Assembly: GCF_042453785.1 (NCBI RefSeq)
Contig: NC_091671.1
Coordinates: 7,820,001-7,884,000 of the forward strand
Source: Malus domestica
Taxonomy: Eukaryota; Streptophyta; Magnoliopsida; Rosales; Rosaceae
Direction of reading: 5' to 3'
DNA: 64,000 nucleotides
The notes under the pieces were generated by a model. It had not been told where the DNA came from. It made no database searches and saw nothing but the letters and a program-made list of their open reading frames with translations. Both the position numbers and the translations under genes were made by a program. This document shows, piece after piece, positions 38,561 through 40,740 of this stretch (within the stretch, counting starts at the first letter, position 1; every line of letters starts with the position of its first letter).

Positions 38561-39193
38561 TAATCGTTTAGGAAAATGGTAGGAAGACCACATTAGTAAC
38601 ACTTCTCTAATACAAGTGTGGCCTATTTGTATTGGTGACCCCTACCTCTATTAAAATGAGGTACAAATATGACTCACTGAATGTGATCTCCTTAACATTA
38701 CTCATATGTGCAACTAAGAAATTGTAAACTTGAACCTAACCAAACTTATTAACCACAATTAGTTTCGCTCGGATTGTTATGGCCTATTTGGGAACTAGCT
38801 TAACCAAGATGCCTATATTAGCTTTACTTTTCGGAAATGTATTTGTAGAGCTAAAAATAATCAAGAAAATTATGGAGGTCACACGTGAACTTTTGGGTAA
38901 AAATGATAAAATTACCCTCAAGACACATCAGGATTCCCACACACGTGCAACAGACAATAACGGTTCAATCAAGGAAGAGTCAAAGGTGATCAAAATGATA
39001 TTAATTACTACTACAAAAGGGCCTTATAGTGTCAGTACGTGGTGTCGGTTTAATATAATATAGTGGTGCATAAGACAGTTGCGACACTAACTGAACATAA
39101 CGTCGGATTTACTGTCGCTTTTAAGCGTCATAAAATTCCTACGTCAGTTTAAGCACATATATTTTAATAATTTTTAAATACAGGCGTCGCTTT

Positions 39194-39461
39194 AAGAAAA
39201 ACAGTGTCGCTTTTAAGCGACATAAAGTATGGGTGTCGCTTTAAAGCGACACAAATTATTGTTTTTAAATATTTTAAAGCTTGCGTCGGTTCTATAAAGA
39301 GACACAAATTATTTTTTTAAATATTTTAAGAAAAACAGTGTCGCTTTTAAGCGACATAAAGTATGGGTGTCGCTTTAAAGCGACACAAATTATGGTTTTT
39401 ACATATTTTAAAACTTGCGTCGGTTTTATAAAGCGACACAAATTATTTTTTAAAATATTTT
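39194..39461. repeat. Two tandem copies of a 134-bp subterminal unit
   Basis: Copy one (39194-39327) and copy two (39328-39461) both run aagaaaaacagtgtcgcttt to gcgacacaaattatt-type ends and each contains three inverted gtcgctt...aagcgac motifs. Confidence 0.9.
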
Positions 39462-39599
39462 AAAGAAACCCATCACCCAAACCCACGGCACGGATTGCAA
39501 CCCTTAACCGTCGATTGCGCCCAATCCACGGTCCTCGTGTTCCCCCCAAATCTCACGTAAAGAAACACAACCCACGTATCAAAGCTCCCAAACCTCTCT

Positions 39600-39607
39600 A
39601 TATAAAC
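39600..39607 (+). promoter_or_regulatory. TATA box retained with the captured H4 copy
   Basis: The sequence tatataaa lies about 95 bases before the H4 ATG. Upstream, gcacggattg (about 39489-39498) resembles the plant histone octamer (cgcggatc), so promoter sequence appears to have been copied with the gene. Confidence 0.5.
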
Positions 39608-39697
39608 CCCCTCCACCTGACCTCTCCGACACTGTAACTTGCTCTCTCAATTCAAATATCTGATCCCAAATCAAACCCTAATTTCATTTCCGCAGCA

Positions 39698-39971
39698 ATG
39701 ACTGGACGCGGCAAGGGAGGCAATGGGTTGGGCAAGGGAGGAGCCAAGAGGCACAGAAAGGTGCTGAGGGACAACATCCAGGGCATCACAAAGCCCACCA
39801 TCCGCCGTCTGGCTCACCGTGGCGGCGTTAAGCGGATCAATCTTCTTGGAGAATGTGATCAATGACGCCGTGACTTACACCGAGCATGCCAGGAGGAAGA
39901 CAGTGACGGCGATGAACGTCGTCTATGCGCTCAATAGGCAGGGCAGGACTCTATACGGGTTCGGGGGTTAG
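39698..39971 (+). pseudogene. Histone H4 pseudogene inside a CACTA-like element
   Basis: The frame opens [20 protein letters not shown] and continues through [16 protein letters not shown], clearly histone H4 of the nucleosome core. It spans 274 bases against 312 for an intact gene. A 38-base deletion at about 39838 removes the SGLIYEETRGVLK region and shifts the frame, causing an early stop. The remaining codons for [17 protein letters not shown] and [11 protein letters not shown] are still readable in another frame. Substitutions such as K8N, R39H-type and D to N near the C-terminus add to decay. Because upstream TATA sequence is kept and no poly(A) tail is seen, it looks DNA-captured rather than retrocopied. 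It cannot make normal H4. Confidence 0.9.
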
Positions 39972-40740
39972 TTTGTTAGGGTTTCAGATTGAGGATTTAT
40001 GTAAATTGGTTGGTTGGTGTGGTGGTGGTTGGATAGATTTAGGTGACGAAGTGCAGGAATTTAACGTTTTTAGTTTGGATTTTAATGGAACATGAATCTA
40101 TTTTCAATCCAATTTTGATCTGTTTTGTTTCCATCGAAGTTGTATTTGGATTTTTTTGTTTTTTGATTACTTTGATATTTTTACATTAGGAGGATTTTTA
40201 CTTTGATATTTGGATTTTTCTATTTTGTTTCTATCGAAGTTGTATTTGAATATTTTATTTATTTAAATGTTATCTGAACCGACACACGGTTCTATATTAT
40301 ATAGTTTATTTTATTAGCTTACGTCGCTATAAACCGACACTAGTTTCTATATTATATAGTTTATTTTATTAGTTTACGTCGCTTTAAACCGACGTTAGAG
40401 TCAGTGTCGCTTTAAACCGACGTTGTGTAGTGTCGGATTAAGCGCACAAAGTGACACTGATAGCCTTTAGTGACGCTAGCATTAGTGTCGCTATGCCAAT
40501 CCGACATTACATTGTTTAATGTCGGATTTGTGCTTAAATTCCAACAGAAATTGGGTTTCTTGTCGGATTTAGCTCCGCCGGTGATAGCTTGTATTGTAGT
40601 AGTAAAAATCCCTTTCCTCATCAAATCCTTATTCAAAAGGTAACTCCCAAATTTCCTATTTAATTTAGGATTAATTGCTATGTTAATTGCAAGTTATTTC
40701 ACATAATATCTTGCAACTATTCACCCAATCACACCATATA

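Follow-up and report, generated by a model that had tools for sequence, protein, structure and literature searches.

The element at 39006..40604 of the window (the whole 64,000-nucleotide stretch of Malus domestica DNA that was analyzed, located in contig C11) is, with high probability (about 0.93), a Pack-CACTA, a known kind of transposon. In its proposed history, a non-autonomous CACTA (En/Spm) element acquired a histone H4 gene copy as its interior and one lineage later swapped part of this for a piece of a sigma-factor gene. The Pack-CACTA reading is founded on the ends, the target duplications, the arms held in common with transposase-bearing relatives, the donor gene, and the other copies in the genome. 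The initial annotation of a CACTA-like element is likewise borne out by the ends, arms, 3-bp duplications in seven of the eight copies, and long relatives bearing transposase. The features of the element and its insertion site are as follows:

38841..39005, + strand: left half of a host repeat with at least 39 further occurrences genome-wide
39006..40604, + strand: complete Pack-CACTA copy of 1599 bp; seven other copies start and stop at the homologous base with C...G
39006..39016, + strand: 5' terminal inverted repeat, TACTACTACAA, from comparison with the other copies
39017..39469, + strand: 5' CACTA arm, rich in subterminal GTCGCTT/AAGCGAC motifs, ~80-85% common to H4-free elements
39470..39697, + strand: promoter plus 5' leader captured from H4, with a TATA box at 39599-39606, aligning upstream of the intact H4 gene on C4 (L008) with a K2P of 0.105
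39698..39971, + strand: broken H4 coding region of 274 nt rather than 312, with 38 nt absent between 39839 and 39840
39972..40162, + strand: captured H4 3' flank/UTR, the last part alignable to the C4 gene
40245..40593, + strand: 3' CACTA arm with subterminal motifs, ~80% common to H4-free elements
40594..40604, - strand: 3' terminal inverted repeat, its + strand reading TTGTAGTAGTA, from comparison with the other copies
40605..40899, + strand: right half of the host repeat, adjoining the left half in 6/6 uninterrupted copies (L051-L056)

Termini, Subterminal Arms, and Insertion Site

The element had been placed at 39005..40605, and the inverted 12-mers at 39005-39016 and 40594-40605 do match exactly, but comparison of the copies corrects the bounds by one base at each side to those listed above. 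The 5' terminal inverted repeat of the other copies is CACTACTACAA in six of seven and CACTGCTACAA in L002, and their 3' repeat reads TTGTAGTAGTG on the + strand in 7/7. The termini CACTA...TAGTG are exact in 6/8 copies, while L002 starts with CACTG and the window copy (L001) reads TACTA...TAGTA, having T and A as terminal bases where all seven others have C and G. Without the canonical terminal bases, the window copy is probably immobile.

Subterminal gtcgctt/aagcgac arrays had been described on both sides of the element and were upheld by counts of GTCG[C/G]TT or GTCGGAT on both strands. The 461-bp left arm contained 15 motifs and the 360-bp right arm 10, compared to means of 0.09 and 0.11, respectively, and never more than one when each arm was dinucleotide-shuffled 500 times, such that the motif density of the arms is far above chance. 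The 778-bp cargo contained no motif and the remaining 62.4 kb of the window 13. The 5' arm also holds a 134-bp tandem duplication (39191-39324 and 39325-39458, 96% identity), and its boundary with the cargo (39469/39470) is accurate to a few bases.

The DNA flanking the element is a host repeat, for which the count of at least 39 other places derives from the best 40 of 1226 candidates scored. In all six copies read, which were + strand matches near the top of the list, the right-flank sequence resumes 13-17 bases beyond the left half. The repeat is therefore uninterrupted in these six and the element was inserted into a pre-existing repeat, so the flank of the H4 copy is not syntenic host DNA, an alternative raised when the element was first annotated. 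Compared to the uninterrupted repeats, the window copy displays no clear target duplication; its flanks, AAT/AAA, form an imperfect 3-bp duplication, and its ends have probably decayed. The absent duplication was considered as an argument against transposition and set aside, terminal decay being simpler given the seven other copies and the uninterrupted repeats. A 24-bp tandem repeat is present at 40734-40829, within the right half of the host repeat.

Copies of the Family and Transposase-Bearing Relatives

A search of the whole genome (651 Mb) identified eight H4-bearing copies on C2, C6, C7 (two), C11 (two, including the window), C14, and C15, and a cargo-only genome search yielded no ninth CACTA copy (40/40 candidates scored). 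The H4-bearing copies span 1.04-1.64 kb, and by alignment the short copies appear to comprise only arms, cargo, and filler, with the H4 and sigma-factor pieces inside. Terminal C...G together with an exact 3-bp target duplication was found in 7/8 copies (TTG, CAA, TGC, AAC, CCC, TTT, and GCG). In a tree of the copies, L005-L007 formed one group with a support of 100, differing from each other by 1-2%, and the rest were weakly resolved; whole-element distances between this group and the others (0.18-0.27) were dropped in favor of arm-only distances, as the cargo is not homologous. Singleton changes among the eight copies were C-to-T/G-to-A in 54/91 cases and in the opposite direction in 12, an excess expected of methylated transposon DNA, and the H4 copies would now be decaying chiefly through this type of change.

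Copies with the same termini, with and without H4, were anticipated in the initial annotation, and the genome search recovered H4-free relatives beside the eight H4-bearing copies. At least 30 H4-free places match the arms at 78-85% (best 40 of 517 candidates scored); no close H4-free progenitor was present among the matches listed, the next best arms being at 84-85%. The terminal repeats thus occur paired in other copies and in relatives. Paired ends were present within the stretch read at 3/17 H4-free loci, with flanking triplets that agree in L013 and L021 and disagree in L012. Of six long regions examined, five contained paired ends separated by 10-19 kb and flanked by matching triplets, a selected figure in that end pairs were listed only where the triplets agreed; region C1a gave none, and region C9a had, in addition, a 4.8-kb end pair of another kind.

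In the first 10 kb of two long relatives, 7/8 frames searched match CACTA transposase-associated domains, including Transposase_21 at 3.7e-90 and 2.2e-87. These elements, starting in L031 and L033, have the same ends and both encode Transposase_21, Transpos_assoc, and DUF4218 matches, with DUF4216 in L031. Introns or decay split their transposase frames, and they are candidates for an active source. The transposase of such long relatives most likely acts in trans on the ends of the short copies.

The Histone H4 Cargo and Its Donor

The cargo extends from the promoter through leader and coding region to ~190 bp of 3' flank. This extent, together with the lack of any visible poly(A) tract, fits copying at the DNA level. 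The proposal of DNA-level capture is consequently supported, promoter and 3' flank both aligning to the C4 gene, while the description as a "whole" H4 gene with promoter is accurate for its extent (TATA, leader, and 3' flank are present) but not for its reading frame, which is broken by the missing 38 nt. A genome search for H4 gave 35 matches, of which 12 were full length (identity with the query: 100% in ten, 99% in one, and 96% in one) and the remainder fragments including pieces in elements. PF15511 was tried as an H4 profile and rejected, being CENP-T_C although it matches H4 genes, and the census was taken from the separate H4 search.

Comparison of the H4 flanks with functional loci, the route suggested for finding the donor, identified the intronless gene on C4 as closest, and among the 12 full-length genes only this and the C12 gene (L010) align with the cargo more than ~11 bp past the coding region. 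For promoter plus 5' leader, the K2P distances separating L001-L004 from the C4 gene were 0.105-0.137 and from C12 0.246-0.354, compared to 0.318 between C4 and C12; from promoter to codon 28, those of L005-L007 were 0.093-0.112 and 0.202-0.216, respectively, with 0.240 between the donors. L009 was omitted from the promoter and leader distances as it lacks this region, and its 3'-UTR distances (0.216 to L001 and 0.55 to both donors) were dropped because the cut overran into unrelated sequence and the copy has deletions. These alignments show the cargo to be copied, at the DNA level, from a single H4 transcription unit whose nearest counterpart is the intact C4 gene, and its lower distance to C4 than to C12 points to the C4 lineage, with the cargo taken after the C4/C12 pair split. 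If rates were equal, the capture would fall at roughly a third of the C4/C12 divergence. At the 5' cargo edge, ~12 bases are nearer to the C12 gene than to the present C4 gene, which may have changed at these bases since the capture. The genome comprises 17 large contigs, and its H4 or sigma-factor gene pairs lie on contigs 4/12, 1/7, 3/11, and 6/14, which fits the homoeologies of an apple-like (Maleae) genome.

The cargo joins the 3' CACTA arm at ~40244/40245. Around this junction (40119..40264, + strand), 40119-40164 and 40219-40264 form an imperfect duplication of 85% identity, 100 bp apart and with filler between, of which ~40-50 bp recur at nine other listed places (86-92%).

Before the deletion, the window H4 carries K9N, A34T, and R40H (Met counted as 1), and the frame, shifted by the 38-nt loss, stops after 55 codons. 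The identical deletion junction is found in 5/8 copies (L001-L004 and L009), L009 additionally being without the H4 start, and in L005-L007 the H4 stops at codon 28. The suggestion of an intact H4 in other copies finds no support in this genome: an open 103-codon H4 frame was present in 0/8 copies, five having the common deletion and three being cut at codon 28. Pfam reported no family for the truncated frame of the window, so that it is assigned to H4 through the intact donor genes. Judging from these frames, none of the copies found encodes a histone, and the family scatters H4 debris rather than working H4.

The Sigma-Factor Chimera

In L005-L007, the H4 sequence continues up to ...GACAACATCCAG and is followed by 317 bp of a sigma-factor gene. 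This piece is 95-96% identical to a gene on C7 and 91-93% to its C1 homologue, with K2P distances over 305 bp of 0.034-0.044 to C7 and 0.073-0.084 to C1, compared to 0.080 between C7 and C1. One exon peptide of the donor matches Sigma70_r2 (2.7e-8) and a second exon peptide has bacterial SigA matches in the PDB (best 4.2e-8), and these matches identify the donor as a sigma-factor gene. Pfam reported no family for the 317-bp piece or for one of the two donor exons, and the identity of the piece therefore rests on the intact donor gene; the gene would be of plastid type, given that it is nuclear plant DNA.

The sequence TCCAG is common to the H4 and sigma-factor donors at the junction, a 5-bp microhomology, and by our own formula an overlap of at least 5 bases is expected at ~0.5% of random joins. 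The sigma-factor piece would represent a second capture. At the join, the H4 frame ends with TAG to give a 28-codon tail peptide, which differs from the C4 gene only by T2N in L005 and L007 and by T2N and R20I in L006. The three copies are too similar (1-2% apart) to inform on selection.

Origin of the Cargo and Alternative Explanations

According to the preferred history, an H4-free element would have taken up a copy of the H4 gene on C4 once the C4/C12 pair had split. The 38-nt frameshift deletion would date to the ancestor of the five copies still possessing the 3' half of H4, or be older. One lineage would then have exchanged all H4 sequence beyond codon 28 for the 317 bp of the plastid-type sigma-factor gene through the 5-bp microhomology, most easily by gap repair with template switching, and both the H4 and the H4-sigma forms would have transposed to several chromosomes. 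Microhomology and filler at the joins appear to favor error-prone gap repair with template switching. Joint mobilization of neighboring insertions predicts elements beside the donor, and none was seen within ~4-5 kb each side of the C4 gene, 2 kb of C12, or 1 kb of the two sigma-factor genes except for one 32-bp CACTA arm match (E = 6e-4) by the C12 gene, although such insertions could have been lost since.

That the H4 sequence is a pseudogene from tandem or segmental duplication or retroposition, flanked by CACTA ends by chance, agrees with its broken frame, and intron loss provides no argument against retroposition since the donor is intronless. This explanation is scarcely credible given the eight copies on C2, C6, C7, C11, C14, and C15, seven of them with target duplications, and is refuted by their common outer bounds; the copying of promoter and 3' flank with no poly(A) tract seen and the host repeat being uninterrupted in all six copies read also speak against it. 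Spread of a functional H4, intact in some copies, might be envisaged from the promoter, leader, and 3' flank on board and from a genome with 12 full-length H4 genes. However, no intact H4 exists in the eight copies, only two of the 12 genes resemble the cargo more than ~11 bp past the coding region, and at those two loci (C4 and C12) no CACTA arm longer than the 32-bp match was seen in the DNA read, making this highly improbable. A working H4 frame would be unnecessary for the element to spread.

A reversal of the two steps, such that the founder carried the 5' part of H4 with the sigma piece and the 3' half of H4 was regained via gene conversion, agrees with the breakpoint at the 3' arm, which is identical to the base in both cargo forms (TTTGAATATT), an outcome not expected from simple replacement, and which coincides with an ATTTG-like overlap in the 3' flank of H4. 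Against it, the noncoding divergence of L001-L004 from C4, relative to that of C4-C12, is ~0.33-0.43 on the 5' side and ~0.34-0.39 on the 3' side, a similarity expected from joint capture, and the sigma piece has diverged less from its donor (0.034-0.044) than has the H4 piece, with the limit that the sigma piece is coding and the H4 figure mostly noncoding. The reversed order is thus rather unlikely, and we infer, short of proof, that H4 was captured first and the sigma-factor piece second.

H4 Fragments in Mutator-Like Elements

A ~1.4-kb Mutator-like element unrelated to the CACTA family was found at L043 (C8), L044 (C6), L045 (C2), and L046 (C7), with ~260-bp inverted ends starting GGGTAAAT and a 9-bp target duplication that agrees at 9/9 bases in L043 and 8/9 in L045, L044 and L046 each being without one end. 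It carries H4 from ~codon 68 (to 103) into the 3' UTR, with 81-84% identity to C12 versus 75-77% to C4 at three loci, the C4 match of L046 being split (86% and 77%). L047 (C3), L048 (C2), and L050 (C12) have ends GGGTAAATTACATTTTA in common and contain 93-98 bp of mid-H4 with 87-93% identity to C12 versus 81-86% to C4; both ends were found in L050, where 7/9 flanking bases agree, and one end each in the scan of L047 and L048. The ends of these three partly resemble those of L043-L046 and the two groups may be related. One Mutator-like family, perhaps two, carries H4 pieces nearest to C12, the closest relative of the C4 gene. Capture of the C4/C12 pair seems to have occurred on two or more occasions, in two different superfamilies.

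A further-reaching and improbable scenario makes C4/C12 a recurrent capture target, CACTA having taken C4 and one or two Mutator-like families C12-side parts, and has the L005-L007 chimeras, with an H4-type promoter and a 28-codon tail peptide keeping all five tail lysines, or else H4-matching transcripts and siRNAs, perhaps supplying dividing cells with an H4-tail peptide or with silencing directed at H4. On the reverse strand of L044 (2142-2368), a CACTA end with 86% identity to the 3' arm of the window element interrupts the end of the Mutator-like copy. Other H4-like fragments were observed at L049 (C1:22935700-22938100), C3:5485602-5485862, and C13:41576718-41576945, the C3 and C13 fragments having open frames with 87% identity to H4 over 92 residues and 82% over 76 residues, respectively.

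Relation to Described Elements

Pack-CACTA elements (Pack-TYPE; Arabidopsis, rice, and maize) resemble the window family in having non-autonomous CACTA ends that enclose pieces of host genes. The accessible text on these elements records pieces from more than one locus within one element (PMC8903248) and proposes capture via neighboring insertions (PMC8903248; PMC13317346), and neither main text uses the word "histone". Unlike the described Pack-CACTA, the window family carries an almost entire histone transcription unit, promoter included. The fragments in Tgm-Express reportedly derive from intron-containing genes, whereas the window cargo is an intronless gene with its own promoter. Tgm-Express is otherwise similar to the window family, being described in the accessible part of its report as a soybean CACTA element with host gene fragments (PMC1947982). 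Within the Rosaceae, RiCACTA1, the insertion in raspberry Ans, is CACTA-like, without transposase, and with subterminal repeats and a 3-bp duplication, and the part of the report available mentions no captured host gene, in contrast to the window family (PMC11790086). Elements L043-L046 of the same genome are similar to Pack-MULEs in their Mutator-like ends and 9-bp duplication, but differ from the window family by superfamily and by an H4 piece nearest to C12 rather than C4.

A limited literature search of partly accessible sources, which is no proof of absence, returned no report of histone H4 capture by Pack-CACTA or Pack-MULE, and the accessible portions of PMC4440537 and PMC8211194 were unrelated to histone-gene capture. 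As far as that search extends, the new aspects are the whole histone transcription unit as cargo, the sigma-factor fusion, and the parallel capture by Mutator-like elements.

Core histones are encoded by strongly conserved genes under S-phase regulation. Such genes are not shielded from transposon capture, given H4 with its promoter in a multi-copy element and H4 pieces in Mutator-like elements. The two-step chimera, with an H4 front, a sigma-factor back, microhomology, and extant donors, would constitute a natural record of how Pack cargo is gained and swapped. For annotation, the family serves as a warning that several H4-like matches in this genome are transposon debris.

Elsewhere in the window, two adjoining frames at 29754-30971 match Plant_tran (1.8e-37 and 5.2e-47) with a stop codon between them, the second also matching DDE_Tnp_4 (5.3e-6), and presumably represent a transposase of the PIF/Harbinger type.
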